Assembly: GCA_025453595.1 (NCBI GenBank)
Contig: JALOQB010000022.1
Coordinates: forward strand, 1 to 34,374
Source: Polyangiaceae bacterium
GTDB lineage: Bacteria > Myxococcota_A > Polyangia > Polyangiales > Polyangiaceae
Reading direction: 5' to 3'
DNA: 34,374 bases
The notes under the pieces are model-generated. The model had not been told where the DNA came from. It was given only the letters and a program-made list of their open reading frames with translations, and made no database searches. Made by a program: the position numbers and the translations under genes. The number at the start of each line of letters is the position of its first letter. Positions within the stretch are counted from its first letter, which is position 1. This document shows positions 10,710-30,080 of this stretch, piece after piece.

Positions 10710-10712
10710 GGC

Positions 10713-12650
10713 TCAGTTTCCCTCCACGGCGGCGAAGGAACGCTCCCGGAACGAGCGGGTCATCGCGACCCGCGCCAGCACCTCACGCAGCGGCGCCTTC
10801 CCCGAGATCTGCGACCGTAGCTCCTCCAGGATGCAACCATCCGCCTTCGTGTCCTCCAGGCGGCTGAAGGTGAAACGGAAGTAATTTCTCACAAAACATG
10901 CCTGCGGCTTGCCGCTCTCGACCACGAGCCGGGTCAGGTCTTCGGCCCCCGACGAGGGCGTCATGTCCCCGATATGGACCTGCGGGATCGAGCTCGTGTC
11001 CACCGCCTTCGATTTCAGCAAAACCCCCTGCTCGTCGAAGAGTTTTTGCTCGAACCTCAGCCGCCCCAGCGCGTCGAAATTCTCCGTCGCAAAGCCCAGC
11101 GGGTTGATGTTCGTCTGGTGGCAGAGCGCGCAGGCGGTCCCGTCCTGCTCCGTCAGCGCCTCCACCACCTCGCGGGTCGTGAACTCTGGCGACAGCTTGG
11201 GGGGCATCGCCGCCGCGTTGTTCGGCGGCGGCGGCACCGCGTCGCACAGCAGCCCCTTCCGCAGGAAGACCCCCTTCATGATCGGCCTCGTGTTCGCGCT
11301 CCCGGTGGCCAGCAGCGCCGCCCGCGTCAGCAGGCCCACCCGCTCCTTCTCCGGCAGCTCTGGCGGCTCCCCGGCGCCATCCCACGGCTGCACCTTGTAG
11401 ATGCTCGCCAGCGCCGGGCCCCGGGCGAACGACCGGCGGCTGGTCAGCAGATCCTCCAGCGTCCCGTCGCTCTGCACCGCGTAGTACGCCCCCAGATCCG
11501 CGATCTCGTTCACCATCTCGTCCCGCAGCCCGGAGACCCCCTCTTGCCCGCTCGCGAAGGCGTCAAACACCGGCGTCCCCACCAGGCTGTCCAGCTCTTT
11601 CAGGTCGTCCAGCCACAGCCACTCGCTCACGAACTGATCCAGCGACTGCCGCGCCCGCGCGTCCCCCGCCAGGCGCTTCACCTGCGCCTCGTACACCGCG
11701 TCGCTCGCCAGCGATCCGTCCCGCGCCGCCTCCCTCAGCTCGTCGTCCGGGGGCGCCTGCCAGAAGTGAAAGCTCAGCCTCGACGCCAGCTCCCACGGGG
11801 ACAGCCGGAACACTTCCCCCTCCACCTGCCCCTCGCCGTGCTCCACGTGGTAGAGAAACTCCGGAGATGTCATGAATGACCCTAGCGCGTCGGCGATGGC
11901 CTGCTCGTTGACCCCCTTGGCGTCGTAGACCTCGCGGTAAAACGCCAGGTCTTCCTCGCTGAGAGGGCGGCGGAGGGCCCGCTCGCCGACGCGCCGCAGG
12001 AAGGCATCGATGCAGGCGTCGTCGTTGCTGGTATCGGCGTCGACGGCGCACTCGCCGACCACGGTCTTGCGCCAGGCGCTCGAGGCCAGCTCGGCCCCCA
12101 GCTCGACCGCGACGCGGTAGGTGCCGTCGATGTGCTCCTGCTGGACGCTCTGGTCGAGGCGTCGGTACCCGCCGTGGGTCTCGTTGGGCAGGCCCTTGCG
12201 GGCGTCCGGGGGCACCTTGGCCAGGGATCCATCGATCTTGGCCATCAACGCCCCCGACTGCCCTGGAGCGGTCGCCTCGATGAGGTCACGCAGGGCGTTG
12301 CGGTACTGGGCGTTCGAGAGCCGACGGAGCGGCAGCTCGGGGCCTCGCAGGGAGGGATCACAGGTGAAGGAGGGCGGGACGTTGCCCGGGTCGCCCCCGC
12401 TGGCGCCGCTGGTCCCGCTGGAGCCCCCGTTCGCGCCGCCAGCGCCGCCGTTGCCTCCGCCGCTGGCCCCTGGTTTCCCGCTGCCCCCTCCGAGCTCGTT
12501 GATCTTGCCGACGCCGCAACCCCCCAGGGTGGCCCCGGCGAGGCAGGTCGCCAGCAGCAGCGCGGAGAGCGGGGAGGGAAGGGGCGCAGGCCAGGATCCG
12601 CGCGATGCTCCAGGGAGGACGCGAGGAGAAGGGCGACGCAGGGGGCTCAT
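10713..12650 (-). CDS. DUF1592/DUF1588/DUF1587 multidomain lipoprotein with CxxCH haem motif
   Basis: About 645 aa. The signal has lipobox LGGC (Cys46 if counted from an upstream GTG at 12653; the ATG at 12650 is used here), then a Gly/Ser/Ala/Asn linker. The domains follow the planctomycete-cytochrome-associated order: DUF1587-like near 108-170 (RRLSNAQYRNALRDLI), DUF1592-like near 228-350 (RRPLSEEDLAFYREVYD, SPEFLYHVEHGE), DUF1588-like near 438-540 and DUF1585-like near 575-640. The DUF1588 region holds CALCH (508-512) followed by NPLGFATENFDALG, a c-type haem attachment site. Together with the Tat-exported DUF1552 partner it probably forms an envelope redox or hydrolytic complex; the substrate is unknown. 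Confidence 0.9.
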   Translation of the reverse strand: MSPLRRPSPRVLPGASRGSWPAPLPSPLSALLLATCLAGATLGGCGVGKINELGGGSGKPGASGGGNGGAGGANGGSSGTSGASGGDPGNVPPSFTCDPSLRGPELPLRRLSNAQYRNALRDLIEATAPGQSGALMAKIDGSLAKVPPDARKGLPNETHGGYRRLDQSVQQEHIDGTYRVAVELGAELASSAWRKTVVGECAVDADTSNDDACIDAFLRRVGERALRRPLSEEDLAFYREVYDAKGVNEQAIADALGSFMTSPEFLYHVEHGEGQVEGEVFRLSPWELASRLSFHFWQAPPDDELREAARDGSLASDAVYEAQVKRLAGDARARQSLDQFVSEWLWLDDLKELDSLVGTPVFDAFASGQEGVSGLRDEMVNEIADLGAYYAVQSDGTLEDLLTSRRSFARGPALASIYKVQPWDGAGEPPELPEKERVGLLTRAALLATGSANTRPIMKGVFLRKGLLCDAVPPPPNNAAAMPPKLSPEFTTREVVEALTEQDGTACALCHQTNINPLGFATENFDALGRLRFEQKLFDEQGVLLKSKAVDTSSIPQVHIGDMTPSSGAEDLTRLVVESGKPQACFVRNYFRFTFSRLEDTKADGCILEELRSQISGKAPLREVLARVAMTRSFRERSFAAVEGN

Positions 12651-12983
12651 CACCGTACAGCGTCTTCCTTTTATGTCCCGGGCTCAAGGGTCTCCTTGCG
12701 GGTTCGGGCTACCAACCTGCTTGCGCTGCCCCGGCGCCGTGGCGTTACCCTGCGAATCATGTTGCGGACCCCTCTCTTGCCCCTCGCCCTCGTCGCCCTG
12801 TCCCTGGGGCCTGGTTGCTACCTGCTTGGCACCAGCGAGGACCCCCAGGGAGGAGCCGAGGCAGGGGCCGGTGGCGCCGGTCCCTCGCAGGCCGGCTCCT
12901 CGCAGGCCGGCTCCTCGCAGGCCGGGGCTGGCGGGGGCGCGGGGGTCGGTGGGGGCGGCGCCGGGGGGGCAGGCGCAGCGGGG

Positions 12984-15320: not shown

Positions 15321-16265
15321 TCAGCGGAAGACGTCGTCGGCGCTGGTGGCGGTGATGGCGAGGTCGAGCCAGCGCTCCAGGGTGTCGAGGTCGTTACAGG
15401 CCGCGAGCTGCGCCGCCTGCGCCTCGGAGATGGCGAGGTTCCGCCGTCGCAGCACGCGCTCCACGGCCTTCCGCGCTTCTTCGACCTTGCCCTCGCGAAG
15501 CCCGTCGACCTTGCCCTCGCGCCGCCCTCGTTCCAGGCCCAGGCGGTGCGCCATCGTCAGCGCACCTCGCGCGTCCTGCAGCGCGATCCGGTCCCGCTCG
15601 TACGCCTCCCACTCCGCCAGCGTGAACCCTGCTGTCCTCGCTTCTTCCAGCGCCTGCCCCATCACCGACCCCTTCAACACCCGCGGCACCCCCTCCAGCT
15701 CGCTCGCTTCCCGGAAGAAGTACGCCCACCGCTCCACCTCCGTCGTCGGGTCCTGCGCGGGGTCATACTTGGGAAGCTCCAGGAACACGTACTGGATGTG
15801 CCCCATGCCTTCTGACCCCGAGTGCGTCTCGTGCATCCTCCATCGGCTCAGCAGGGGCACTGTGCTGCCGCTGGCGCGGGGCCACAGCTCGAAGTCACAG
15901 ATGCTGATGGCGACGACGTCGTTGAGCTGCGGGTACTCCTCGCCGCCGCGAAGTTGTCCTGTGTACGACTTGCAGGCGTTGTAGACCACGCGCTTGTCGA
16001 ACCCTTCGACGGGCAAGACCTGCATCTCGATGACGTAGGTGGTGCCCTGGGCGTCGGTGCACTTCACATCGACGATGCTGAGCTTGGCCTCCTGGACCGA
16101 GGGCTTCAGCTCCGGGGGCAGGAGCTGGACGGAGACGATGTGGTGGGCGGCGTCGGTTTCGAGGAGGTCGTTGAGGAGGGCGAGAAGGAGGTGGATGCGA
16201 GGCTCAGACCCGAAGAGGCGCTTGAAGACAAGGCCGGTCATGGGGTCGGCAAAGACAGGGCGCAT
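15321..16265 (-). CDS. Rpn family / PDDEXK-type nuclease (recombination-promoting nuclease-like)
   Basis: A 314-aa protein. The N-terminus FADPMTGLVFKRLFGSEPR and LLLALLNDLLE is the hallmark of the Rpn/PD-(D/E)XK nuclease family. The catalytic core is visible as D66 in LSIVDVKC and E80-x-Q82 in YVIEMQV. The C-terminus is charged and helical, with a repeated REGKV/LREGKV stretch (about 244-260) common in this family. Such proteins were first called transposases, but they cut DNA and promote RecA-independent recombination, and some act in phage defence. It lies on the same strand as the RT operon, 224 bp downstream of the RT stop. It could be an accessory nuclease of that system or an independent neighbour. 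The 197-bp gap to the FKBP gene (15124-15320) shows nothing I can name. Confidence 0.88.
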   Translation of the reverse strand: MRPVFADPMTGLVFKRLFGSEPRIHLLLALLNDLLETDAAHHIVSVQLLPPELKPSVQEAKLSIVDVKCTDAQGTTYVIEMQVLPVEGFDKRVVYNACKSYTGQLRGGEEYPQLNDVVAISICDFELWPRASGSTVPLLSRWRMHETHSGSEGMGHIQYVFLELPKYDPAQDPTTEVERWAYFFREASELEGVPRVLKGSVMGQALEEARTAGFTLAEWEAYERDRIALQDARGALTMAHRLGLERGRREGKVDGLREGKVEEARKAVERVLRRRNLAISEAQAAQLAACNDLDTLERWLDLAITATSADDVFR

Positions 16266-16489: not shown

Positions 16490-17902
16490 TCACTTGTTGC
16501 GGGCGACGAGGGCCTCGATGCGTTCGAGGAGGGCCTTTCCCTTGGCGGGATCGGTCATGTAAACGAAGGCCGCCATGCCCTTGAGCTGGTCGAGGGATTC
16601 GCCCTCCTTGCCGGGCTTGCCCTGCTCGCGGTTATGGAGAGCGGCGCGGAGCTTGCGGAGGGTCTCCCGGGGGACGCGAGCGGCGGCGCTCTTTTCGGCG
16701 CTGTTGATGACGAGGCCGGTGACCGCCTGGCGCTCGCCGGCGCGCATGATGCGGGTCTTGGCGGGGTTGAGGCGGAAGCCCTCGGCCTCGAGGATCTGGC
16801 CGATACCGCGGAGCAGCGCGCCGGTGCCAGGCTGGGGGCTGGTGCCGGGCTGGATCGGGCCCGGGTGCCAGGAGAAGGTGAGGTCGTCGGCGTAGCGGGT
16901 GTAACGAAAGCCCAGCGCGCGGGCGAGGCCCGAGAGCCTGCGGTCGAGGCGCAGGCAGATGGTGTTGGTGAGGGCAGGGGAGGTGGGGGCGCCCTGGGGC
17001 AGGGCGCGGGGGCCGCTGGCGACGTAGTGGGTCTTGCCGCGGAAGAGCACCTCCTCGCGGGGGGCGTCGGTGGCGAGGAGCGAGAGCAGGGTGGCGACGT
17101 TCTCCGGGAGCCCCTGCTTGCGCAGCAGCCCCTTCACCCGCTTCCAGGTGATGGAGGGGAAGAAATCCTTGATATCGACCTTGATCACCAGGGGCGAACC
17201 GGCGTGCACCTGGGCGTTGGTCACGATGGAGCGAGCGGAGAGGAACCCGTGGGCCGCGGCGTGGACCGGCAGCTTCTCGAGGACATTGCGCAGGACCCAG
17301 CGCTGGGCTGCCTTGAGCTGCCCCTTGGGGGAGGCCAGCGTGCGGGTCGAGACCCCATCTCGCTTGAGGACCTTCCAGCGGCGGTAGTGGGTGCTGGTGT
17401 CGACCTCGCGGTGAAAGGCGAGCCACCGGAGCGTGGGGATGGTGAGGCCCAGCGCCTCGGCGAGCTGCTTGACGCTGGTGACCTCGAGCTTGAGGGCCTG
17501 CGCTCGCGCGTCCCGCTGGGCGTGGTCGAAGGCATCCGCCTTCTCTTCGTCGGACCAGAAGATGCCGGCGCCGAGGTGGGTGATGTGCGTGGCCGTGTAG
17601 GCCTCCCAGGCGAGCTTCTTCAGGGCCCGGCGCTCGGTGGCCTCGGCCTTCTTGCGCTCCTTGAACTGGCCCCTGGCCTTGTCCGAGAGGGCCGAGGGGT
17701 TGGTCTCCTCGACGAGCAGGCCACGGGCCTTGAGCTCGGCGTTGACCCAGGACGGGACGCCGCCGGCGGCCTCGATGGCCTTCCAGCGCTCGGTGCGCTC
17801 GGCGATCAGCTTGGGGTCCTGGCGGGGAGGGGGCTTGGCGGGGGATCCGCCGGCGAGGGTGGGGGGGGCGGCTTGCAGGTGCTTGTCGATCAGGGCAGTC
17901 AC
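16490..17902 (-). CDS. Retron-type reverse transcriptase
   Basis: A 470-aa protein that should synthesise msDNA from a structured RNA. The N-terminal 150 residues are a basic/helical extension, longer than in short enterobacterial retron RTs but seen in myxobacterial ones. The retron-specific X motif NAxxH is present (N229-H233), followed by motif A VDIKDFFPSI (D243), LPQGAPTSPALTN (about 301-313), the catalytic YTRYADDLTFS (D339, D340) and the retron Y-region VTGLVIN (394-400). It starts at GTG 17902 with GGAGG about 6 nt upstream. It is the last gene of the five-gene operon, only 20 bp after the SWIM gene. It lacks maturase and HNH domains, so it is not a group II intron protein. GC and codon use match the neighbours. 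Confidence 0.92.
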   Translation of the reverse strand: MTALIDKHLQAAPPTLAGGSPAKPPPRQDPKLIAERTERWKAIEAAGGVPSWVNAELKARGLLVEETNPSALSDKARGQFKERKKAEATERRALKKLAWEAYTATHITHLGAGIFWSDEEKADAFDHAQRDARAQALKLEVTSVKQLAEALGLTIPTLRWLAFHREVDTSTHYRRWKVLKRDGVSTRTLASPKGQLKAAQRWVLRNVLEKLPVHAAAHGFLSARSIVTNAQVHAGSPLVIKVDIKDFFPSITWKRVKGLLRKQGLPENVATLLSLLATDAPREEVLFRGKTHYVASGPRALPQGAPTSPALTNTICLRLDRRLSGLARALGFRYTRYADDLTFSWHPGPIQPGTSPQPGTGALLRGIGQILEAEGFRLNPAKTRIMRAGERQAVTGLVINSAEKSAAARVPRETLRKLRAALHNREQGKPGKEGESLDQLKGMAAFVYMTDPAKGKALLERIEALVARNK

Positions 17903-17922
17903 AGGGGCCTCCAGGGGGCGGT

Positions 17923-19743
17923 TCAGCCAGCCGCTTCAGCGTCCACATAACCCTCCGTGGAGAGGGCTTCGAGTCGGGCGAAATAGGCCTCGCGGGCCTG
18001 CGCGTCGGTGTCGTACCAGAGCCGCTGGTGCCGGGGGTTCACGGAGCGAAGACCCCACTGTACCTGCACCACCTTGTCGTCCAGGGACACCCGGTACACG
18101 GTCTCCTTGCCGCTCGCGTCGCGCCGCGTGAGCACCCGGGTCTCCGCCCGGATCGCCTTGCGGCCTTCCGGCGTCTGGCGGAGCGCCTCCGCCTCGGCCA
18201 CCTTGCGTGTATGGAGGATCCGGAGGGCCAGCATGTGCTCGCAGGGGCCCTCGCGGAGCCCGGAGCGCTGGTACGTCGAGCAGTTGCACCAGGCCTCGGT
18301 GACGCGCCCCTCGATGTCCATGGAGAAGCGGGGGAGGAACTGGCGCCGCGCCTCCAGGTCGTTGACCTCGCCGTGGACCTCGATGCCCTCGCCGCTGATC
18401 TCGTGGAGCTTGGTGATCTCGACGGTGCGTGCGGTCTCGAGGAGGCGGTGGGCCTTGGCCTCGCGGGGGGAGCCGTAGCGGGTGACCTCGTCGGCCACCG
18501 GCTGGGCGAGGAGGGACCGGGGGCGGTAGCTGCCCTGGGCCACGTCGAAGAGCACACGACCACGGAGGCACTCGCGCTGCAGGACGGCGCGGAGGTCCTC
18601 GCGGGGGGCGCCGGTGGCCTTCTGGAGGGCTTCGAGGGAGGTGGGCCCCTGCTGCTGGAGGTGGGCGAGGGCCCGGTCGGCCACGGCGGCACCGCGCTCT
18701 GCGCCAGGGATCAGGCGGTCGAAGGAGGCGGCGCTGGCCCAGCTGCTCTCGGACCACCCGGTGAGGGCGACGGAGAGGGTCGCCACGCCGAAGTCGAGGG
18801 TCCAGAAGACCGGGAGCCCGGGGCCGAGCATCTGGACGCGGGCACCTTGCAGGTAGGGGAGGGCCCGGGCCAGGGTCAGGAGGCGCTGGCGGCCGAAGGT
18901 GCGCACGACGCGGGGGGTCTTGCCCTGGTAAGGGTCGCCGTGGCCTTCCAGGACCAGCTCCCAGGGCTCGAGGATCAGGCGCGGCGCCTGGCCCGGGATC
19001 AGCTCGAAGCGCAGCCCCCGGGGCGGGTTCTTGGCCTTGCGGGTGCGCAGGGCGAAGAGGAGGTTGTAGAGGTCGATGGGGGCCAGGTGGCAGGTGGTGG
19101 CCGGCAGCGTGGCGGCCGACTGCACCTGCAAGAACCCGCGGAGCCACCGGTGAGGGACGGTCACCTGGCGCTGCTCGCCGCCGCTACCCTCGCCCTTCCC
19201 GACCTCGAGGGCGAGGGGCAGGTAGCCCGGGAGCCGATCCAGTCGTTCCAGCAAGGCCGGGGGGAGGTCGACGAAGGAGGTGCCGTGGGCGGCCTCGCGC
19301 CCCTCGAAGAAATCGCTCGAGAACGAGAGGCGCGCGTAGGCGCTCTCATCGCGGGAGAACACCTCGAGGGATACCCCGTCCGGGTCCACCGTGAGCAGCG
19401 GATCCAGCACGCCGGACTGCTTCTTGTCGTCCTCGAACTGGGCATCGATGAACGACTTCTGAGCCTCCCAGATCGCCGCGTTGGCCCGCTTCCCTTGCTT
19501 CATCAGGTACGCGAGGTAAGCCGTTCGATCCCTGCCCTTGTAGCGCAGGTCGCTCTCCAGGATCTGGAGCGTCGTCATCAGCACGTCCCGGAACAGCGCC
19601 GCGTCCCGGGGGCGGCCCCGCAGGCCGACGACCCCTCGCCCTTGATCCAGCGCGAGCTTCACCGTGGACGCAGCCCCCGTGGAGCTCACCTCGCTCCGCG
19701 TGGCGTACTGGAAGGTGATCGTTTCTGCCGCAACCGCGCTCAT
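17923..19743 (-). CDS. Winged-helix + SWIM zinc-finger protein with degenerate C-terminal WGR domain
   Basis: A 606-aa protein. The first 350 residues have no family I recognise. About 353-410 reads as a winged helix (ADRALAHLQQQGPTSLEALQ, LRGRVLFDVAQGSYRPR). A SWIM finger follows with ligands C486, C488, C501 and H503 (CNC...CEH), suited to DNA or protein binding. The end (about 535-601: ETVYRVSLDDKVVQVQWGLRS, then YDTDAQAREAYFARL and EGY) follows the WGR domain plan, with WGL in place of WGR. Its ATG overlaps the stop of the giant HEAT gene (ATGA), and the RT gene follows at 20 bp. WHSWIM proteins are, as I recall, reported partners of certain myxobacterial retrons; the WGR-like end links it to the first gene of this operon. 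Confidence 0.85.
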   Translation of the reverse strand: MSAVAAETITFQYATRSEVSSTGAASTVKLALDQGRGVVGLRGRPRDAALFRDVLMTTLQILESDLRYKGRDRTAYLAYLMKQGKRANAAIWEAQKSFIDAQFEDDKKQSGVLDPLLTVDPDGVSLEVFSRDESAYARLSFSSDFFEGREAAHGTSFVDLPPALLERLDRLPGYLPLALEVGKGEGSGGEQRQVTVPHRWLRGFLQVQSAATLPATTCHLAPIDLYNLLFALRTRKAKNPPRGLRFELIPGQAPRLILEPWELVLEGHGDPYQGKTPRVVRTFGRQRLLTLARALPYLQGARVQMLGPGLPVFWTLDFGVATLSVALTGWSESSWASAASFDRLIPGAERGAAVADRALAHLQQQGPTSLEALQKATGAPREDLRAVLQRECLRGRVLFDVAQGSYRPRSLLAQPVADEVTRYGSPREAKAHRLLETARTVEITKLHEISGEGIEVHGEVNDLEARRQFLPRFSMDIEGRVTEAWCNCSTYQRSGLREGPCEHMLALRILHTRKVAEAEALRQTPEGRKAIRAETRVLTRRDASGKETVYRVSLDDKVVQVQWGLRSVNPRHQRLWYDTDAQAREAYFARLEALSTEGYVDAEAAG

Positions 19744-22700
19744 GCTCGTGTCTCCTGCTGCTTTCGGTTCGCCGAACGCTGGGCTCGACGCAGCGCTCGG
19801 TAGGCCGCCTTTCGCTCGGCAACCTCGTACTTCTTCTTGTCAAACGCGATCTGTCGCAGCGGCTCCAGCACCTCCGCCGCGCCGCTCCTGCCTGCCGCCG
19901 CGATCAGGTCCAGGAGCTCCTGGCCCTTCGCCGACGCCAGCATCGCGCCGAACCGGGCCCCGCCCCCTTCGAGGAACACCCGGGCAAGCACCAGGCGGCG
20001 CCCCTCGTGGCTCCCCAGGCTCTCCGCCGACGGCGCCGGGCTGGCGCTCGCGAAGGAGATGGGATCCTGGGGCTGCACCTTGAGCAGCAACCCCAGCGCC
20101 TGGCCTGGCGCATGACGCTGGAGGCCCTTGGCCGCGAGCGCCCGGACCGTCGGACTCGGGTCCCGCAGCGCCGCCTCCATCGCGCTCACGTCCTCCCTGG
20201 TGCTCCCCAGCTCCTGGAGCCCCCCCAGCGCTTCGACCCGGATCGACTCCGGCACCTTCTGCGGGTCCGAGGTCGCCAGCTCCCGGAGCCTCGCGGTGGC
20301 TGTAGAGAACTTCCGGATGCGCAAGGTCCAGAGGATGGTGCGCCACGCGGCCACCTCCTCGAGCTGGTCGTCGTCGCTGGCCTTGGCCCAGCAGGCGGCG
20401 GTCTTCTTCTCGGCGGCGAGGAGGGCCGCGGCCAGCTCGGGGGAGCCGGTCGCGGCGGTACGGGCCCCGAGGAGCCAGGCCGCGCTGCTCCGTGCGACGA
20501 CCGTGTCGTGGGTGAGCAAGGGGGCCAGGGACTCGTCGGCCAGGGTGGGCCTGCGCAGCAGACCGAAGCGCAGCTTGTTCACCAGCTCCTCGTCGATCTG
20601 CTCGGCCAGCTTGGGCAGAAGCAGCGCTGGATCGGCCTCGTCGGCGAGGTAGCGGGCCGCGGGCTCGGCGAGGTCGGTGTCGTCGAGGGTCAGCGCGTGG
20701 AGGTCGACCCGGACCCGATCCTGGGGGAAGAGCTTCCGGAGCGACTGGTAGCTCGTGCTCCGCACGTCGTTGTCGCTGTCCTTGAGGGCCGCGAGCAGGG
20801 CGGGCTCCGAGCCCATGTTTTTGAGCTCTCCCAGGATCTCGGCGGCGGTGACCTTGACGTTCCAGCGGACGCTGCGCTCGAGCAAGGTGGCCTCGATGGC
20901 GGCCCTGGCGCGCTCGTCCTTGATCCACCGGAGGCCCCGGAGGGAAGCCTGCTGCACCTCCACCTTGGGGTCGCTGAGCCCGGCACGGAGGCCATCGAAC
21001 AGCCGCTTCTTGACCTCGGTATCGAGCATCTTGTCGTGGAGCTTGCCCAGGGCCTCGATGGCGGCGGTGCGCATCGCCTCCTCGACCGGAGCCTCCTCGG
21101 TGCCTCCCGAGGCGATCTGCTCCAGCTCCGCCAGGGCCCGGGCGTCGCCGAGGGCGCCGAGGGCGAGGATGGCGCGAGGGCGCTCGTGGTCCTCGCCAGC
21201 GCGGGTGAAGAGCAGCAGGGGACGGAGCGCCCCCGCGCCTCCGCGCTCGGCGACGCCCTCCGCCGCGGCGAGCAGGGTCTCCCGGGCGCCCTTGCGCAGC
21301 ACGTCTTCGAGCGGTTCGACCGGCGCGTTCTTCTTCCGCACACGGCTCGCGTAGCTCTCGACAGCGGCTTTCCGGGTCTCCTGATCGCGATCCAGGAACA
21401 GGGAGCGAAGCACCGTGGACTGGCCGACCTCCTCGCCGTGCTCCAGCTCCACGGCCGCCCGGCGCCGCAGCTCTGGCGCTCGCGACTGGGCCCCGGCGTG
21501 CAGCGCCTGCAGCGCCAGGGGCCAGTTGCGCCGGTGGCTATCGATCTTGGACAGGGAGAAGGCCCCCTCGAAGGCCGCGACCCGCACCGCCTCGCTCTCG
21601 TCCGAGAAGCGCTGGCACAGCGGCGAAAGAGCTGCCTCGTTCCTGCTGCGGGCCAGCGCCTTGAGCAGGTTCGTCTTGAGCGCTTCGGTCGCTTCTTCCT
21701 GCAGGCGACCGGCGAGCACGGCGACGGCGGCCTGGCTACCCAGGCGAGCGAGGGCGTTCCGGGCCCGCTCCTGGAGGCCCTCGTCCTCGCTCCGGAGGAA
21801 GTTGCCGAGGACCTCCGCCGCGGCGTCGTTCTTCCGGTTGACAAGCAGCTCGGCGGCCATCATCCGGAGGTCGTCGTGCTCGCTGCGGAGCGCCTTGAGG
21901 AGCGCGCCAAGGACCCGCTCATCCGGCGTGTTCGCCAGGCGCTGGAGCACGCCCAGACGCATGTCCGAGTGATCGCTCTGCAGGGCATGGAAGAGGGGCT
22001 CCAGGCTGCCCTTGGGGTAGAGCCCTTCGAGCAGCGAGAAGGCGTGCTTGCGCACCTCCGAGGCCCCGGCGTTCAAGGCCCGAGCGATGGCCTCGCGGCT
22101 CGCCTCGCCGCGCGCTGCCAGCTCGTCGAGCGCGGCCCGGGCGATGTCATCGGAGGAGCTACCGAGGGCGAGCACCAGCGGCTCGTTGGCGCCCTCCGGG
22201 AACAGGCGCTTCAGGCCCGCAAAGGCGGCCCGTCGCACCAGGTAATTCGGGTCTTCCAGGGCGCGGCCCAGCGGAGGGAGTGCCGCGGTGAGGCCCACGG
22301 CGTTCTGCTGCACCAGCTCGACCACCCGCTCGATGGCATCGCGGCGGACCCGGTGCCCCTCGTCCCCCCCGCTGACCTGACGCAGCAGGCCCACGTAGGC
22401 CCCGAAAGCGAGCCAGCGCAGCCGCTGCTGCTCGCCGTCCGGTACCTGATCGTTCACCACGCCGGCCTCGGTCTCGCGGAAGAGACGCCGGAGCCACCCC
22501 TTGGCGCCCCACATCTCCTCGCCAGTGGCGGGCCTCGGGGTCGTGTCCGCGGGGGCCGGACGAGAGGCCGTGCGGGTGCGCGTCAGCTTCTCGACCTGGC
22601 GGAAATACTCTGCCGGACGCGATCGCAACCGCAGCGCCTGGGAGGCTGCGTAGCGAACATCGGGTTGCTCGGAGGCGATGCTCTCCGCCAGGGCGACCAT

Positions 22701-25700
22701 CAGCTTCCCCTGGGTCGGCTCGTCGGGCCAGTCCTTCATCGCCGACGCCTTCTCGGGCTTCGGCGGCAGCAGCGCCTCGATCAGGTGGTGCAGGTACCGC
22801 TCCGGGTCGCCGCGCAGCTCGAGGGCCCGGGCCGCGGCGTACCGGATCTCGGGGCGCTGCGATGAGATCGCGCTGGTCAGCAGGTCCGGCGCGTCCCCCT
22901 GGCGGAACGCCCGGAGGTCCCGCGCCATCACGATCAGGAACACCAGCTCCTGCACGTCGGCGGCGGCGTCCTCCAGCCCCTGCAGCATGCCCCCGTAGCC
23001 CTCGGGCCCCAGCGCCGCGAACGACAGGATCGCCCCCACCCGCACCGGCGGGTGCTCGTGGCGTAGATGGCCCGTGAGCACCGGCAACGCACGCACGTCG
23101 CCCAGCTTCGCCAGACCCTCCGCGGCCCAGGAGCGCACCGCGACATCCTTGTGCCCGAGCGCGTCCAGCAGGTACCGCTCGTCGCCCTTGCGGCAGGCCA
23201 GCGACAGCCCTCGCGCGGCCTGCTCCCGGACCGCGCCGTCCTCGTCCTTGAGCAGCTCGTTCGCGAAGTACGAGAGCAGCCGGGGCGAGGCCAGCGTCGC
23301 CAGCGCCTTTGACGCCCGGTAACGCAGCGTCGCCAGCTCCGGCAGGAGCGCCGCCGGGAGCCGGGTCTTCAGGTCCTTGTCGGCAAGGAAGCCGCGCATC
23401 GTATCGATGAGCTGATCATCCCCTCGATCCGCCAGGAGCTCCGCGGCCTGCACCTTGAGGTCGTAGAACGAGCCCTGGAGCGCGGCGTACAGCGGCCCTG
23501 CCTCCCTGGGCAGGAGCTTGTCCAGCGCCCCCAGCGCCTCTGCCCGCGCCTCTGCGTGGTCGTCCTGGAGCTGCCTGGTCAGCGGCCCCCGCGTCGCCTC
23601 GACGGTCAGGTGGCGGCAGGCCTTGGCCCCGGCGGCGCGCACCTTCCCGTGGACCGCCCCGAGGGCCGCCAGCGGCGCCCCGCTGTCCTCCTTGCCCCGC
23701 AGCTTCACCAGCGCCTCGAAGGCCGCCAGCGCCACCGCTTCGTCTCGATCCTGGATCGCCGCCAGCAGCCGGTCCTGCGCCCAGGTCTTCTCCTTGTCCT
23801 TCCCGAGGGTCTCGAGCTCCTGGACCGCCTTGTGTCGCAGGTCCGGGAAGCGCGCGTCCAGCGCCCGCGCCAGCGCCTGCTCCGGGCTCTTGCTGTGCCA
23901 GGACCACAGCGTCCGGAACGCCTCCGCACGCACCTCTGCGGACTCGTCCTCCAGCGCATCTCCCAGCAAGGTCGTCGTCGAATCGGTCCGCTTGTCCCCT
24001 TGCTTGACCAGCTGGTTGAGCCCCTGCACCCGGATGTCCTTCTGGGACGAGCGCAGCGCGGTCTCCGCCAGCTCCAGCGGGTCCAGCTCCAGCTTGCTGT
24101 ACGCCTCGTAGGCCGCGGTCCTCACGTCTGCGTCCGCGTCGTCCAGCATCCAGGCCAGACGCTTCTTGGCCCTCGGATCCTCCAGCGCCCGCAGCGCCGC
24201 CGCGGCCTCCCGCCGGATCTGCTTGTCCGCCTCTCGCGAGAGCTGCAGCAGCGCCCCCAGCGCCCGGATATCCCCCAGATCCGCCAGCCCTCGCGCGCCT
24301 CGCAGCGCCGTGTCCGGGGTCCGGCAAGCCATCGCCGCCAGCAGCGGGGCCAGATCGGCCTCGACCGGCGTGGTGTCGGCGGACACCTTCTTTCCGAGGG
24401 CCAGCCGCGCCTGATCCTGCTCCGCATCCCCCGGCGTTTTCCCTTCCTGGCGGGCCTGAAAGCCCGAACGGATCGTCGCCGCCAGCCGGCTGACCTCGGC
24501 GACGGTGCGCTGGAAATCCTGATCGCGGCTCTCCAGTCGAGCCGCGAGGGGAGGGTGGTGAAGGACCTGGATGGCGAACGCAAACCGACGGACCGAGGCA
24601 TCCTCGTTGTCGAGCGCCTGGGTCAGGATGGCGGCCATCTTGGGGTGCGTCAGCAGGCCGCCCAGCGCCGCGCGCACGAGGGCCTCGCTCCTGAGATCCG
24701 GCGTGCCTCGCTCGAAGGCGGTGAGCAGGGGCTCGACCGAGCCTTCGTCAAAGAGGCTGGCGTAGGCCTCCAGGGCAGCGACGCGCACCAGGGCGATGTT
24801 GCTCGCCATGTGCCCGGCCAGCAGGCCGCCGACGAGCGGAGAGCTCTTGTGCTTCGTGGCGAGGTCATGGATGGCACGGATGCGAAGATCGCCGTGCTTG
24901 GACTGGAGCGCGGACCGCTGGGGGTTGAGCGAGTCTTCCCCCTCGATCTGGATCAGCGCTTCGTAGCAGGCGAAGCGCACCGATGCGTGATTCGAGTGGA
25001 GCGCGGTGCGGAGCGCAGGGCGCCCCTTGAGCCGGCGATGCTTGCCGAACTCGCGGGCGATCAGCTCTTGCACCTCGGGGAAGCGACCCCCATTGAGGGA
25101 CTGGACCATCATGTTGATGGCCTCCGGCTCCTCGAGAGGGGCAAGCTCGCGGACGGCGTTTTCGTGGGCCGCCCTGGCGTTCGAGGAGAAGGCCTCGCGC
25201 AGCGGGAAGAACCCGTGACCGAGGACGATGGAAGAGCCCGGGGCCCCCGCCTGATCGACGGAGACCTGATCGACGGAGACGTGGTCACCGCCCACGAGCA
25301 GGAGGCCAAACTGGTCGCCCTTGGTGATCTTGGCGAAGGCGAGCGCGTGGGCCGCGTGGTTGCCGGTCTGGACGTCGATGGAGCGCGGTTTGCGTCGATC
25401 TTCCAGGCGCCAGAACTTGGCTTTCCCGTCGCTGCCGACGGAGACAAAGCGGTCACCTGGATCCTCCGTGCCCGCCTTGACCTTGGGGTTTGGCAGGAAG
25501 AGCAGCCCGTGGACGGTGCCCTTGTGCCCTGCGTCGTCGTTGCCGCGAACCTCGCAGTCGATGTCGCCCGCGAGGAACCAGATGCGGATCAGGCCGTCTT
25601 CTCCGCCGGAGACGATGCGTCCGTCCCGGGGGGTGAAGGCCAGCGCACGCACGGAGCCTTCGTGCCCCGGCATCTCGCGCAGGGCACCGCCGGCCAGCGT

Positions 25701-26180
25701 GATCACCCGCACCACGCCGTCGTCGCCCGCTGCTGCGATGTACTCCCCGGTCGGATCCGCCGCCGCCGCCCGCAGCGGCATCGAGGAGAGGGACCACTCG
25801 CTCTGGAGCGCCCCGGCCGTCGTGAAGAGGCGCAGCTTCCCGTCGGCCCCCGCGCTCAGCACCTTGCCGCCGTCCGCGAGCGCCACGACCGCCGTGGCCG
25901 CCCCCTGGTGCGCCTCGATCTCTCGCAGCGCCTCCCCCGTGCCTGCCTTGTAGAACCGCAGCTTGCCGTCGGAGCAGGCTGCCACGGCCACCTCGCCGGC
26001 GATCGTGACCCCGTGCACGTGCGCCGGGATCGTCGCCGCAGCCACCCGCTTGTGGCTCACGACGTCAAAGAACGTCACCTGGCTGGAGGCGCCATCGCGC
26101 TCGCCGCCCAGGACCAACACCCGCGCCCCGCTCGCCAGCGCGCGTACTCTCTCGAAATGGCCGATGTTGTGCTGCGCCAT
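19740..26180 (-). CDS. Giant WD40-propeller + HEAT-repeat protein (2146 aa)
   Basis: The ATG at 26180 overlaps the upstream stop (TGATG); the frame extends further upstream, but that overlaps the preceding gene. Residues about 1-310 form a WD40-like propeller: DGKLRFYKAGTG, DGKLRLFTTAG, DDGVVRVITLAG, EDGLIRIWFLAGD, SDGKAKFWRL. The remaining roughly 1800 residues are almost continuous HEAT repeats, seen as recurring ALEDPNYLVRRAAFAGL and LRSEHDDLRMMAAELL units, probably about 40-50 of them; an exact count needs a repeat finder. A low-complexity break with Pro/Thr lies near 1190-1220. No enzymatic motif, signal peptide or TM segment is visible, so it is likely a cytoplasmic scaffold. It contains a perfect 15-bp tandem duplication at 25251-25280. 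It is the largest gene of the retron-like operon. Confidence 0.9.
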   Translation of the reverse strand: MAQHNIGHFERVRALASGARVLVLGGERDGASSQVTFFDVVSHKRVAAATIPAHVHGVTIAGEVAVAACSDGKLRFYKAGTGEALREIEAHQGAATAVVALADGGKVLSAGADGKLRLFTTAGALQSEWSLSSMPLRAAAADPTGEYIAAAGDDGVVRVITLAGGALREMPGHEGSVRALAFTPRDGRIVSGGEDGLIRIWFLAGDIDCEVRGNDDAGHKGTVHGLLFLPNPKVKAGTEDPGDRFVSVGSDGKAKFWRLEDRRKPRSIDVQTGNHAAHALAFAKITKGDQFGLLLVGGDHVSVDQVSVDQAGAPGSSIVLGHGFFPLREAFSSNARAAHENAVRELAPLEEPEAINMMVQSLNGGRFPEVQELIAREFGKHRRLKGRPALRTALHSNHASVRFACYEALIQIEGEDSLNPQRSALQSKHGDLRIRAIHDLATKHKSSPLVGGLLAGHMASNIALVRVAALEAYASLFDEGSVEPLLTAFERGTPDLRSEALVRAALGGLLTHPKMAAILTQALDNEDASVRRFAFAIQVLHHPPLAARLESRDQDFQRTVAEVSRLAATIRSGFQARQEGKTPGDAEQDQARLALGKKVSADTTPVEADLAPLLAAMACRTPDTALRGARGLADLGDIRALGALLQLSREADKQIRREAAAALRALEDPRAKKRLAWMLDDADADVRTAAYEAYSKLELDPLELAETALRSSQKDIRVQGLNQLVKQGDKRTDSTTTLLGDALEDESAEVRAEAFRTLWSWHSKSPEQALARALDARFPDLRHKAVQELETLGKDKEKTWAQDRLLAAIQDRDEAVALAAFEALVKLRGKEDSGAPLAALGAVHGKVRAAGAKACRHLTVEATRGPLTRQLQDDHAEARAEALGALDKLLPREAGPLYAALQGSFYDLKVQAAELLADRGDDQLIDTMRGFLADKDLKTRLPAALLPELATLRYRASKALATLASPRLLSYFANELLKDEDGAVREQAARGLSLACRKGDERYLLDALGHKDVAVRSWAAEGLAKLGDVRALPVLTGHLRHEHPPVRVGAILSFAALGPEGYGGMLQGLEDAAADVQELVFLIVMARDLRAFRQGDAPDLLTSAISSQRPEIRYAAARALELRGDPERYLHHLIEALLPPKPEKASAMKDWPDEPTQGKLMVALAESIASEQPDVRYAASQALRLRSRPAEYFRQVEKLTRTRTASRPAPADTTPRPATGEEMWGAKGWLRRLFRETEAGVVNDQVPDGEQQRLRWLAFGAYVGLLRQVSGGDEGHRVRRDAIERVVELVQQNAVGLTAALPPLGRALEDPNYLVRRAAFAGLKRLFPEGANEPLVLALGSSSDDIARAALDELAARGEASREAIARALNAGASEVRKHAFSLLEGLYPKGSLEPLFHALQSDHSDMRLGVLQRLANTPDERVLGALLKALRSEHDDLRMMAAELLVNRKNDAAAEVLGNFLRSEDEGLQERARNALARLGSQAAVAVLAGRLQEEATEALKTNLLKALARSRNEAALSPLCQRFSDESEAVRVAAFEGAFSLSKIDSHRRNWPLALQALHAGAQSRAPELRRRAAVELEHGEEVGQSTVLRSLFLDRDQETRKAAVESYASRVRKKNAPVEPLEDVLRKGARETLLAAAEGVAERGGAGALRPLLLFTRAGEDHERPRAILALGALGDARALAELEQIASGGTEEAPVEEAMRTAAIEALGKLHDKMLDTEVKKRLFDGLRAGLSDPKVEVQQASLRGLRWIKDERARAAIEATLLERSVRWNVKVTAAEILGELKNMGSEPALLAALKDSDNDVRSTSYQSLRKLFPQDRVRVDLHALTLDDTDLAEPAARYLADEADPALLLPKLAEQIDEELVNKLRFGLLRRPTLADESLAPLLTHDTVVARSSAAWLLGARTAATGSPELAAALLAAEKKTAACWAKASDDDQLEEVAAWRTILWTLRIRKFSTATARLRELATSDPQKVPESIRVEALGGLQELGSTREDVSAMEAALRDPSPTVRALAAKGLQRHAPGQALGLLLKVQPQDPISFASASPAPSAESLGSHEGRRLVLARVFLEGGGARFGAMLASAKGQELLDLIAAAGRSGAAEVLEPLRQIAFDKKKYEVAERKAAYRALRRAQRSANRKQQETRA
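25251..25280. repeat. Perfect 2 x 15-bp tandem duplication
   Basis: CTGATCGACGGAGAC occurs twice in direct succession, duplicating five residues (VSVDQVSVDQ) just after the WD40 part of the giant protein. Perfect identity suggests recent slippage. Confidence 0.95.
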
Positions 26181-28948
26181 CACGTCCTCAGGATCGCAAG
26201 ACCGGGGTGCGCCCGGTGAAGGTGGGTCAAGGCGGCCAGGCAGGATTGCCACTCGCCGCGGGCCAGGGAACCGGAAAACTCCTGCAACACCGGGGCGACC
26301 AGGGCCGCAAAGGCCGCGTCCTCCGCCCCGAGATCACGCACCAGCTCCACGATGTTCTTCTTGATGACGCTCGCCGACACGTGCCGCCGCTTCGTCTCGC
26401 TATCCCCGGCCGGTGAACGGCCCGGAGGCAGCCCGAACAGCAGGCGGCGCAGAAGCCCGCGCAGCGCCTCCACGTCCTCGAAGCGCCCCTCGTCCGTCAG
26501 CGGCACGTCCGCCGCCTTGCGGGGCTTCCAGCCTTGCGGGTACGACCGGGGCCGGTGCTTCTCCCACAGCAGCCGCACCGAGAACAGGCGCACCTCCCGG
26601 TCTGCGCTCTGCATCAGCCAGCCCAGCCGCTCTGCCCCTCCCAGCCGCGTGTAGTGCCTCCGGATCAGCCCCATCGCCACGTCCCGCGTCGCCCGCTTCG
26701 TGCTCTCCGTCATCTGGAAGATCGGCGCCGCGTCCAGCTCCTCCAGCTTCAGCGCCACCTGCGGGTCTGCCAGCTCGTTCCCGGCCCCCTCCAGCGCCGC
26801 GTACGCCAGCGTGCGCACCTCCTTCGGCTCCAGATCCGCCAGCTCGTACACGCGTGTATGGAGGTTCCATGCTCTGAGGTTCGGGCGCACGAGCTGGAGC
26901 GCGAAGGCGCGCACGTCGGCCCGCTCGTCCCTCAAGAGCCCCCAGATCTTCTGGGGATCGTAGTCCTTCTCCTTGAGGACTGGTTTGAGCCCAAACTGCT
27001 TGCTCCTGGGCTGCTCGGGCCCGAGGGCGGGGTGGTGGCAGAGCAGGTAGGTCTGGGCAAAGGCGCGGACCGGCTCCTGCTCCCCGAGGGCGAGGCCGAA
27101 GAGGCGCGAGGCACCCGCCTGGGCGTCGCCCTCGGCGAAGTCTGCCGGCTTCATGTGCTCCAGCAGGTAGCGGTGGGCGAACTCGTGGAGGTCGGTGTCA
27201 GGGCGCTTGGCCAGCGCGAGCAGCCACGGGAGCCCGAGCTCCTTCGAGCTGACCAGCTTCGGGTTCCCCAGGATGGCCAGCGCGTCGGTGCGCAGGGATG
27301 GGTTGAACACCATGCCCTTGAGGCGTTCGATGTTGAGCCCCGGCAGGTGGGTTGCCTTCTGGAGCAGCGCGGAGGCCTCTCCGTTGAGCCAGTCCCTGGT
27401 GAGGGCGTCCACGAGCCAGTCGACGCCGATGTCCGCGGCCTTGTATTTCCCGAGAAACTTGAAGGCAACCTCGACGGTATCGGATTCTTCCTCGGCGCGC
27501 TTGTCGTCGAGCACCTGGGTCCAGAACGGGGCCCCGATCTCGGTACCGGGGTACTTCTTCTCGATGTACTTCTTCGCCCAGTCCCGCTGCTCTTCCTCGC
27601 CGTAGAGCATATCGACGAGGAATTCGCGGGGTAGCTCGCTGCGCTCGAAGCTCTCGGAGAGGGCCTTGGTGGCCCACTCCCGGGTGACCTTGGGCGAGAG
27701 CAGCTCGGCGATGAATGCATGACCGAGCTCCCGCGGGGGGCGAGCGGTCAGCAGCGACTGGGCCAGCTCGACCAGCTCCTTGTGGTCCGAGGAGAGCAGC
27801 CTGAACAGCCGCTCTTTTTCCATGTCACGAGCGTGGGCCCGGGCGTATTCAGCCGCGTACTTGTAGGCGACCTTGTTGCTGGAGCCGAGGAGCTCGAGCA
27901 CCGCGTCGTGGAGGCCCAGCCCCCGCAGCTTGCCCTGGTGCAGCTCGGGCGAGCCCGAGAGGGTCTCGACCACGAAGGCGTCGATGCTGTCGAGCTTGCG
28001 GTACGGCAGCCGGGCCAGCCACGCGGTCGACACGCTCCGGAGTCGCTCCGGGAAATCTTTTTGCAGACCCTGGATCGCGAAGCGCGCCACCACGTCGTGC
28101 CTGCACGCGTCCAGCAGGAACATCAGCTCGTCCGGCGAGCGCTTCCAGGACTCCGGGAAGGCCCGGTGCTTCACCATGTCCTCTGGCGGCAACCGGCCCG
28201 AGAAGCTGCGCAGATCGTAATGTTTGGTGCCGTGCCCCACGATGTGGTTCATCACCCACAGCCCGTGGATGTCGGCGCTGGAAGGGTAGTTCCGGAGCAC
28301 CTCGGCGGCGAAGCGCGGGTACATCTCGGGCACCGAGGCGCCCAGCTGCCTCAGGAAGCGCCAGGCGCGCCGGCGCAGGTAGCCGAGGGTCTCCCCGCTC
28401 ACGTCCCGGTCGTAGGCGGGGCTCGTCGCCCCCTGATCAAAGCGGGCCGCCAGCACCCCGAAGAGCTCTGCGTCGAGGGAGGCCTCGGCCTTCTTGTAGA
28501 TGCGCTTGAGCCCACCCCAGACGCCGTAGCGCAGCGGCACATCCTGGCAGATCTCGATGAGCAGGGCCCGGGCCGTCGCCGTGCCTTGCTGGTGCAGCGC
28601 ATCGAGCAGCTCGGCGAGCTGGAAGCGAGGCGGCAGCAGCGAGGGATCCTGGGCCAGGAACTTCTGCCATGCCTCCTGGATCTGCTGCTGGCGCGCCTGA
28701 CGGCTGTGCCGGGCCCGAGCACGCTCAAGCAGGTTGCTGTGGTCAGAGAAGCTGATCCAGTTCTCCGGCGGCTCCTTGCGTACCTGGACCTCTTTCGTTT
28801 CTCCGTCCTCGTCGGTCTGCTGGACGGTCTCCTCGAAGGGATCTGGATCGCCCTGCTCCAGGTATTGCCTGAGCAGATCGGCCAGGCCAGGCGCCTCGGT
28901 CCGGGCGAGTCGCTGGATTTCTGCCAGTTGCATCGTTTCGTTCGCCAT
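26180..28948 (-). CDS. Large helical-repeat (HEAT/ARM-like) protein of the retron-like operon
   Basis: A 922-aa cytoplasmic protein with no signal peptide or TM segment. The N-terminal 90 residues are acidic and charged (FEETVQQTDEDGETKEVQ). The rest is alpha-helical in character, with HEAT/ARM-like units such as LLSSDHKELVELAQSLL, LRDERADVRAFALQLVR and MQSADREVRLFSVRLLWEKH. I see no catalytic motif. WGR-domain and long helical-repeat regions are found fused in MolR/YehI-like proteins, and here the WGR part is a separate gene 3 bp upstream, so this could be the body of a split MolR-like protein; that comparison rests on architecture only. Its stop overlaps the start of the WD40/HEAT gene. Its codon use does not differ from its neighbours. 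Confidence 0.8.
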   Translation of the reverse strand: MANETMQLAEIQRLARTEAPGLADLLRQYLEQGDPDPFEETVQQTDEDGETKEVQVRKEPPENWISFSDHSNLLERARARHSRQARQQQIQEAWQKFLAQDPSLLPPRFQLAELLDALHQQGTATARALLIEICQDVPLRYGVWGGLKRIYKKAEASLDAELFGVLAARFDQGATSPAYDRDVSGETLGYLRRRAWRFLRQLGASVPEMYPRFAAEVLRNYPSSADIHGLWVMNHIVGHGTKHYDLRSFSGRLPPEDMVKHRAFPESWKRSPDELMFLLDACRHDVVARFAIQGLQKDFPERLRSVSTAWLARLPYRKLDSIDAFVVETLSGSPELHQGKLRGLGLHDAVLELLGSSNKVAYKYAAEYARAHARDMEKERLFRLLSSDHKELVELAQSLLTARPPRELGHAFIAELLSPKVTREWATKALSESFERSELPREFLVDMLYGEEEQRDWAKKYIEKKYPGTEIGAPFWTQVLDDKRAEEESDTVEVAFKFLGKYKAADIGVDWLVDALTRDWLNGEASALLQKATHLPGLNIERLKGMVFNPSLRTDALAILGNPKLVSSKELGLPWLLALAKRPDTDLHEFAHRYLLEHMKPADFAEGDAQAGASRLFGLALGEQEPVRAFAQTYLLCHHPALGPEQPRSKQFGLKPVLKEKDYDPQKIWGLLRDERADVRAFALQLVRPNLRAWNLHTRVYELADLEPKEVRTLAYAALEGAGNELADPQVALKLEELDAAPIFQMTESTKRATRDVAMGLIRRHYTRLGGAERLGWLMQSADREVRLFSVRLLWEKHRPRSYPQGWKPRKAADVPLTDEGRFEDVEALRGLLRRLLFGLPPGRSPAGDSETKRRHVSASVIKKNIVELVRDLGAEDAAFAALVAPVLQEFSGSLARGEWQSCLAALTHLHRAHPGLAILRT

Positions 28949-28951
28949 CGT

Positions 28952-29830
28952 TCACTGGTCCTTCAGCCGCGCCACGCGGGCCGCGAGGGAGGGGTCGCCT
29001 GCCGTATCGATCGTCTGGAGGTACTTGCGCAGGGTGGTCCCCTGCTGCGTCAGCTGCGCCTGGAGGTAGGGAGCCACGTCCCGCCAGAGCCGGGACCAGC
29101 CCGCCTCGTTGCCGCTGATGCCGCGGCCCGGGCGATCCAGCAGCAGGCAGCCCAGCCGGAACGCGAGCTCTGGCTCCGGGAATTGCTCGGCCAGCTTGCC
29201 CAGCAGCGCCACCTCCCGCAGGGGAGCCTCGGCGGCCTTCCAGGTGGCCAGCTGCCGCTCGTAGACCCGCACATCCATCGTCCACAGCAGATCGAGCGCC
29301 CGGAGCAGCGATAGCTTCCCCTTGCCCCGGCCCACCCGGGCCAGCAGCGCGTCCACCGCGCCCCCCAGCTCGCCGTGCTCGGAAGGGTCGACCCCGCCCA
29401 GCCTGGACAGCGCCCGCCGCGCCCGCCGCGCCTCCAGCTTGGCGTGCCAGCTGCGCTTGCCGCCCAGCGCGCGGCTCAGCCGCTGCACCGCGCTCGTCGC
29501 CGTCGCCACCCCCTCGCCCGTCGGTGCCCCCTGGTTCCGCGGCGGCATCGGCGCAGGCCCGGCCTTCCGCGTCTCCTTCTTCTCTTCCGGCGCGCTCGCC
29601 ACCGGGGCCGCCGGCGCAGACCCGCCTTCGACCTCCTTGTAGCCCTCTCGCAGCTTCTCGGCGACCTTCTTCTCGTACTCCTTGTAGGCCGCCTCCGCGC
29701 TGGGAAACTCCTTCTCCTTGCGGGACCCCGCGGTGCCGATCTTGCCGTACACCACGATGAATTTTTGGCCTTCCACGTCGGTAGACCAGAACTTGGCGCT
29801 GCTACCCTCGACGAACTCGAACCTGCGCAT
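28952..29830 (-). CDS. WGR-domain protein, first gene of the retron-like operon
   Basis: A 292-aa protein. I chose the ATG at 29830 because GGAGG lies 6 nt upstream and the family homology starts at once; the frame runs further upstream to 29968. Residues 1-70 form a WGR domain: RRFEFVEGSSAKFWSTDV, then VVYGKIGTAGSRKEKEFPS and a charged helix ending EGY. The core tripeptide reads YGK rather than WGR. A Pro/Ala/Glu linker (about 71-110) leads to a basic, helix-rich C-terminal half of unknown family. WGR domains bind nucleic acids in PARPs and occur in MolR-like bacterial proteins, so a nucleic-acid contact is plausible. The gene leads the operon and is followed at 3 bp by the 922-aa gene. Confidence 0.85.
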   Translation of the reverse strand: MRRFEFVEGSSAKFWSTDVEGQKFIVVYGKIGTAGSRKEKEFPSAEAAYKEYEKKVAEKLREGYKEVEGGSAPAAPVASAPEEKKETRKAGPAPMPPRNQGAPTGEGVATATSAVQRLSRALGGKRSWHAKLEARRARRALSRLGGVDPSEHGELGGAVDALLARVGRGKGKLSLLRALDLLWTMDVRVYERQLATWKAAEAPLREVALLGKLAEQFPEPELAFRLGCLLLDRPGRGISGNEAGWSRLWRDVAPYLQAQLTQQGTTLRKYLQTIDTAGDPSLAARVARLKDQ

Positions 29831-30080
29831 CGCGAGCCTCCACGATACCCTCGCCTCGACAGCCGGCCTCGGGACGCGCAGCCTAACGCCACCCCTCCCA
29901 ACCACGGAAGACTTTCCTCTCCACTCGGCCCCTTCTCCCCGATTTTTCGCCTTGATCCGTCGGTTCAAGGCGCGGACATTCTATGTCATCGATCCCCGCG
30001 AGCTCCCTCGCTGGACCGCTCACGCTCCGTCGCCATCGAGGCAGTACGGCGACTGCGGGCCTGGGAGCCCCTCACGATCC
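29831..30080 (-). promoter_or_regulatory. Leader/promoter region of the WGR-to-RT operon
   Basis: A 250-bp gap with several inverted repeats: CGCCTTGA - 9 nt - TCAAGGCG (29948-29972), GACAT-TCT-ATGTC (29975-29987) and GTCGCC / GGCGAC (about 30030-30054). The last could terminate the Cys-rich gene upstream; the first two lie where a promoter and operator, or an alternative ncRNA, for the operon would be. I cannot assign -35/-10 boxes. Confidence 0.4.

Follow-up and report, generated by a model that had tools for sequence, protein, structure and literature searches.

A type XIII retron operon of a Polyangiaceae bacterium and its probable template RNA, a separate gene with a variable msd stem

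A contig of 34,374 nucleotides from a Polyangiaceae bacterium, called the window here, was analysed over its full length. It carries on the minus strand a five-gene operon (16490-29830) that belongs to sub-clade B of the type XIII retrons. The msr-msd RNA is not part of the transcriptional cassette of the reverse transcriptase (RT): it is absent from the 34-kb contig and is found megabases off in complete relatives. We consider it very probable that the operon uses a stand-alone template RNA encoded in trans and acts as a guard. Whereas this kind of operon is already known, the trans, multicopy and stem-variable ncRNA appears to be the new aspect.

The five open reading frames overlap or abut each other (Table 1). 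The junctions were present as in a preliminary description of this DNA, with a 3-bp gap between the WGR gene and the gene of the 922-aa protein, TGATG between the latter and the giant, ATGA between the giant and the SWIM gene, and a 20-bp gap between the SWIM and RT genes. For the WGR gene the ATG at 29830 was taken as the start, since the listed TTG start at 29968 was judged to be too long. Pfam matches were obtained to RVT_1 (4.5e-18), SWIM (6e-4), HEAT_2 (2e-90), WD40 (1e-18) and WGR (9e-16), and the retron motifs that had been noticed in the RT were all found as NAQVH, YADD and VTGL. The co-linearity of the five genes is not due to chance, because the same gene order recurs across many genomes. 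Directly downstream of the RT gene, a PD-(D/E)XK nuclease-family transposase (PF12784, 3.2e-40) is encoded on the minus strand at 15321-16265, possibly as a mobile insertion. Adjacent genes with DUF1552 (HXXSHH) and DUF1592/1588/1595 (9180-12653, minus strand) are unrelated to the retron.

Table 1. Genes of the type XIII operon and the SWIM-RT spacer in the window
Feature	Coordinates	Strand	Remarks
WGR-domain protein, helical C-terminus, 292 aa	28952-29830	-	first operon gene; Pfam WGR 8.7e-16
HEAT/ARM solenoid protein, 922 aa	26180-28948	-	HEAT-ARM_XIII (PADLOC 5.3e-266); also matches the repeat part of WGR_XIII (1.1e-46)
WD40 + HEAT giant scaffold, 2146 aa	19740-26180	-	HEAT-ARM_XIII (PADLOC E 0)
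SWIM_XIII protein, 606 aa	17923-19743	-	PADLOC 9.6e-152
SWIM-RT spacer, 20 bp	17903-17922	-	site of msr-msd in cis relatives; too short here
Retron-type RT, 470 aa, extended N-terminus	16490-17902	-	PADLOC RT_XIII 3.4e-150

The proteins were compared with the retron-classification models of PADLOC. Strong matches to type XIII models were obtained for four of the five, and the operon is therefore a member of a described class. This bears out the mention in the preliminary description of a retron class that pairs the RT with WHSWIM and ARM/HEAT proteins. Its proposal of an extended form had to be given up, because the HEAT-ARM_XIII model of 1972 positions already covers the giant (E 0; 1343 bits across ORF positions 25-2167). 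The WGR protein of the first gene had no PADLOC match, including to WGR_XIII, and a WGR gene upstream of the operon was not found in the closest relatives (L089, L098 and L096). Only this separate upstream gene is peculiar to the window genome.

Across the Myxococcota, the genes for RT_XIII and SWIM_XIII are adjacent with few exceptions, and the upstream genes, which might have occurred mostly on their own, nearly always accompany an RT. The RT of the window is placed by the tree inside the RT_XIII clade and not outside the retron RTs. The tree splits the RTs into two groups, with a support of 100/99 for the B clade. The group A operons consist of a helical-repeat protein, the SWIM protein, a spacer mostly of 60-800 bp and the RT, and the group B operons, including that of the window, have the same plan plus the WD40/HEAT giant of about 2200 aa. 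The window genome contains a second type XIII system (L103, G000:C361) that belongs to group A and has a cis ncRNA between SWIM and RT. In the cis group B relatives L087, L099 and L100 a small WGR protein is encoded right after the RT with an overlap of 4-8 bp, and the SWIM proteins of these relatives retain a WGR-like stretch at their end.

The SWIM protein was modelled with AlphaFold2 using 17 homologues (pLDDT 85.3, pTM 0.84). When the model was searched with Foldseek, the 50 best PDB matches were all sliding clamps (E 1e-7 to 1e-6), comprising PCNA, DnaN and Rad9-Hus1-Rad1, with a TM score (target) of 0.60-0.68 for PCNA. A PCNA-like sliding-clamp fold is thus predicted by the model for the N-terminus (about residues 1-330); sequence searches gave no support for it. 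The clamp is followed by a winged helix, a SWIM zinc finger (C486, C488, C501, H503) and a C-terminal WGR-like domain. The earlier naming as a WHSWIM-WGR protein holds in so far as this last domain is visible in the sequence and forms a domain of its own in the predicted model, but it had no Pfam match. An alignment showed that the zinc ligands are degenerate in the cis or cis-displaced relatives L085, L087, L096 and L099. The 922-aa HEAT protein was modelled by AlphaFold2 as a solenoid (mean pLDDT 85) and its structural matches were solenoids only. None of the five operon proteins was found to contain a toxin or nuclease domain.

In group A and in part of group B a canonical msr-msd is located in the SWIM-RT spacer. 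Besides the a1/a2 arms it comprises two hairpins, GGCGGYG..CGCCGTCC and that of the msd, the latter being very long. In the 34-kb window the msr-msd was searched for with fuzzy motifs, an inverted-repeat scan and two profiles, all with a negative result. There was no long inverted repeat with a score of 18 or more anywhere in the window, the enlarged ncRNA profile had no match across it (best E 6), and Rfam gave no match to a retron family. The tripartite cassette implied by the preliminary description did not hold up, as the ncRNA is located outside the window and encoded in trans. The same ncRNA family is displaced from the spacer in L096, L079, L126 and L138. In some spacer-less relatives it was found just outside the operon: L096 has a tandem pair that follows the RT, and in L079 three copies precede the operon. 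Downstream of the RT, L098 and L124 have long hairpins, which were judged to be GGGGACGG-type mobile repeats and not ncRNA.

A covariance model termed R1 was built from 15 ncRNA copies that were located in the cis spacer or displaced from it. Its only match in the window genome was on another contig (G000:C545:31891-32091, 97.6 bits, E 2.6e-17). This ncRNA, about 310 nt long including its a1/a2 arms of about 31 nt, has a CAGC after a1 and an msd arm of 34 positions. A search of some 8-10 kb on either side of it found no retron genes. The composition of the C545 contig and the operon contig agrees with a tetranucleotide r of 0.989. Because the assembly is fragmented (81% complete, 570 contigs), the distance between operon and ncRNA is given as a lower bound of about 13 kb.

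The R1 scan was then extended to 360 Myxococcota genomes. The ncRNA was detected in 26 genomes, all of which contain a group B operon (p 1.5e-33), and in none of the 327 genomes without such an operon; 15 of the 26 positive genomes had given no sequence to R1. Likewise, all 22 named genomes with a B-type RT, chosen by RT similarity, contain the ncRNA. In the complete chromosome of Minicystis rosea (CP016211.1) the RT is encoded at 877,283-878,551 and the RNA at 2,751,033-2,751,233, 1.9 Mb apart. In that of Nannocystis poenicansa (CP114040.1), 3.4 Mb separate the RT at 11,154,062-11,155,336 from two tandem RNA copies at 7,768,377-7,768,910. Each of the two has a single cognate RT, and profile searches of their operon loci detected no ncRNA. 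Since the separation amounts to megabases in complete chromosomes, the distance between RT and ncRNA is not an effect of the assembly.

Many genomes contain a trans copy only and no cis copy. According to the RT tree, the cis arrangement is probably ancestral, and linkage between ncRNA and RT was lost at least two times in sub-clade B. The distances of ncRNA and RT are correlated (Mantel 0.75, p 2e-4; trans copies only 0.64, p 0.0014), which can also reflect joint vertical descent. Five B-type genomes were without a convincing ncRNA in the scan (G127, G204, G331 and G136, and G170 with only 1.7e-4). Four of these form one RT clade, in which the RNA may have diverged, and the contig of G136 is short. 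Two more genomes were missed by the strict scan, of which G160 was found with lax filters and G223 has a fragment at a contig end. When the ncRNA loci were submitted to Rfam, no retron family was found; the matches, mostly to miRNA families, were all below the gathering scores and are long hairpins.

The number of trans copies differs between lineages. In Myxococcota the ncRNA copy number rises to four, in G236 and G327, which belong to one genus, and tandem trans copies are present in both Nannocystis genomes (L323, L324). Three Planctomycetes contain 13, 17 and 26 dispersed copies, each with one B-type RT. The copies sit between unrelated housekeeping genes. Orthologous loci are syntenic between related genomes, and at the ncRNA locus of G218 both neighbours are common with Nannocystis. 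Beyond this synteny of orthologous loci, no recurrent neighbour gene of the trans copies was observed. The motif TTGC-N18..22-TA(C/A) occurs about 45 bp upstream in 20 of 34 Planctomycete copies (shuffled mean 1.6, maximum 5), and a T-run follows a2 in 25 of the 62 copies examined. These signals suggest that the trans copies are separately transcribed from promoter-like sites of their own.

The cores of the copies are alike, whereas the msd arms differ between most of them. In 38 Myxococcota copies the mean ungapped arm identity was 0.32, and the msd arms paired with their own partner at 99.0%. Between paralogues the core identity was 0.87-0.97 and that of the arms 0.43-0.70 in a gapped alignment. 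At one syntenic locus the stem was replaced (L184/L186), and similar stems were kept in a few orthologous or recently diverged pairs. When 22 Planctomycete copies were aligned, 26 of 27 stem pairs changed on both sides. The stem covariation was 0.608, compared to at most 0.110 when slid, and was reached in none of 500 shuffles.

The interiors of the Myxococcota stems contained 813 Watson-Crick pairs, no G-U pair and 8 others in 821 cells, and G-U was also absent from columns 86-110 of the Planctomycete alignment. On reverse transcription, G-U in the RNA would turn into a C-A mismatch in the cDNA, and selection therefore seems to act on the DNA hairpin. We take the stem pattern as indirect evidence that the ncRNA is reverse transcribed.

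Palindromes are enriched in the Planctomycete stems, with a mean half-length of 3.83 compared to 2.65 (sd 0.19) in dinucleotide shuffles; this enrichment was not seen in the Myxococcota stems. The Planctomycete arms (L309-L321, L329-L348) contain palindromes of up to 16 bp, such as TGAAGTACTTCA, GGGGGAATTCCCCC and CGCACCACGTGGTGCG. The arms look as if they presented binding sites of dimeric proteins. A possible origin of the stems as copies of phage DNA was tested by searching three arms exactly in viral contigs, which gave no match. An origin from nearby host sequence was rejected as well, with a longest match of 9.8 compared to 9.5 in shuffles. In the genomes tested, an arm was found only in its own ncRNA and nowhere else.

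The closest precedent for RT-less msr-msd repeats is Retron-Nex1 (Ne160) of Nannocystis exedens. In the passages of the 2019 review PMC6868368 on this element, several duplicated msr/msd repeats are described, after Lampson and Rice 1997, that lack an RT within one kilobase and may have been inserted by an RT located far away. Ne160 and the trans ncRNAs have in common that they are repeated msr-msd without a nearby RT, and the tandem copies of the two Nannocystis genomes are plausibly the same thing as Ne160, matched by description and not by sequence. Whereas those passages treat Ne160 as possible retrotransposition by a distant RT that was not identified, here the RT, the effector operon, the distribution and the stem variation are identified. 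This offers an RT gene for the old puzzle of the RT-less msDNA repeats of Nannocystis.

According to the 1997 proposal for the N. exedens repeats, the dispersed ncRNA copies could be dead by-products of retrotransposition or duplication. The RT-less duplicated repeats at Ne160, for which the retrotransposition reading is cited (PMC6868368, in the same passages), and the high copy numbers in Planctomycetes would agree with this. However, decay would be expected of dead copies, and the parent sequence would persist in their stems. The cores are conserved, the stems co-vary and have an interior without G-U, the promoter-like sites are kept, the loci are syntenic across species and a cis copy is lacking in many genomes with a trans copy, and we regard dead by-products as highly improbable. 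Hardly credible to us is also that an unrecognised cis ncRNA serves the window retron and that the C545 ncRNA belongs to another RT in the missing part of the genome. The genome is 81% complete and retron ncRNAs diverge fast, but neither a profile match nor an inverted repeat above the threshold was found in the window, and the ncRNA is likewise absent at the operon in two complete genomes. The only other near-full-length RT_XIII match, on C361, has its own cis type A ncRNA, and the ncRNA closest to that of the window comes from G062, a genome whose RT is grouped with the window RT.

A template encoded in trans, the reading that we prefer, can be put into a working model. The RT would recognise in trans the conserved ncRNA core, start synthesis at the conserved AGC and turn the msd into a hairpin of DNA. 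In several lineages the template has multiplied into dispersed, separately transcribed copies with differing hairpin duplexes. The RT-msDNA and the clamp-like SWIM, HEAT, WD40/HEAT and WGR proteins may form one complex, and a phage product that binds, cuts or modifies the msDNA hairpin would release or activate it. A set of different hairpins would then respond to a wider range of triggers. In known systems the RT, the ncRNA and the RT-DNA restrain the effector until a phage trigger comes (PMC12548924). The sensor complex monitoring msDNA that the preliminary description had proposed is plausible. We moderately favour abortive infection as the cellular outcome, which is suggested by analogy, because no known toxin domain was found.

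Alternatively, the system could be a host regulatory or DNA-maintenance device, with msDNA hairpins serving as decoys of host DNA-binding proteins and the clamp and HEAT proteins working at sites of replication or repair. The predicted sliding-clamp fold, the palindrome-enriched Planctomycete stems and the housekeeping neighbours of the ncRNA copies are compatible with such a device, as is the finding that viral contigs contain no copies of the window RT clade (best match 37% identity, to other retrons). We think this unlikely. Since the stem sequences are absent elsewhere in the genomes tested and are unlike their own flanks, they are not copies of host operators. The patchy spread (33 of 360 genomes) fits defence better than housekeeping, and retrons of known function are defensive (PMC12548924, PMC12887533). 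We tentatively propose that separately transcribed template RNAs form a genome-wide library for one RT-effector operon, each with a DNA hairpin that differs in its duplex sequence. The cell would then have a repertoire of dsDNA baits against sequence-specific phage proteins, linked to the clamp-like effector. If this is true, it would be an innate immune repertoire produced by reverse transcription.

The window operon has four of its five proteins and the gene order in common with retron type XIII (PADLOC RT_XIII, SWIM_XIII, HEAT-ARM_XIII and WGR_XIII). It differs by a trans-encoded ncRNA, with no msr-msd adjacent to the RT, and by WGR as a separate first gene; its relatives have several ncRNA copies whose stems are different. 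With group A (including C361, L103) it shares a related RT and SWIM protein, and in both the ncRNA combines a long msd stem with the GGCGGYG..CGCCGTCC hairpin. In contrast, group A has no WD40/HEAT giant, and its ncRNA was always in the SWIM-RT spacer where examined. The RT motifs, the a1/a2 arms, the AGC priming motif and the msd hairpin are common to the window system and Retron-Eco1 and other cis retrons. As described in the passages of PMC6868368 on validated retrons, msr and msd are all in one transcriptional cassette and the msd stems generally have mismatched or wobble pairs, whereas the window system has a separate RNA gene and a wobble-free variable stem. No paper found by a literature search of incomplete coverage describes retron RNAs that are encoded in trans or that occur in several copies differing in their stems. 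Retrons are described as a compact RNA-RT-effector cassette; here the RNA is a separate gene with up to 26 versions per cognate RT. The purpose of the msDNA sequence is now testable, because nature varied only the hairpin and kept the rest. Searches for retron RNAs beside the RT will miss the sub-clade with trans ncRNA, and RTs able to use a large number of msd inserts, supplied in trans by scattered loci, would be of use for intracellular DNA production.

The ncRNA is kept beside the RT in Archangium, Corallococcus and a Sorangium MAG, and most of these RTs are 57-63% identical to that of the window. In two Archangium loci (L227, L210) RT and ncRNA were found together, and the other operon genes were not seen within the flanks analysed; the contig sequence of L210 ends just upstream of the ncRNA. 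A B-type SWIM gene is located about 60 kb off in A. lansinium and on other contigs in the genome of L210. These Archangium loci are the reverse kind of splitting.
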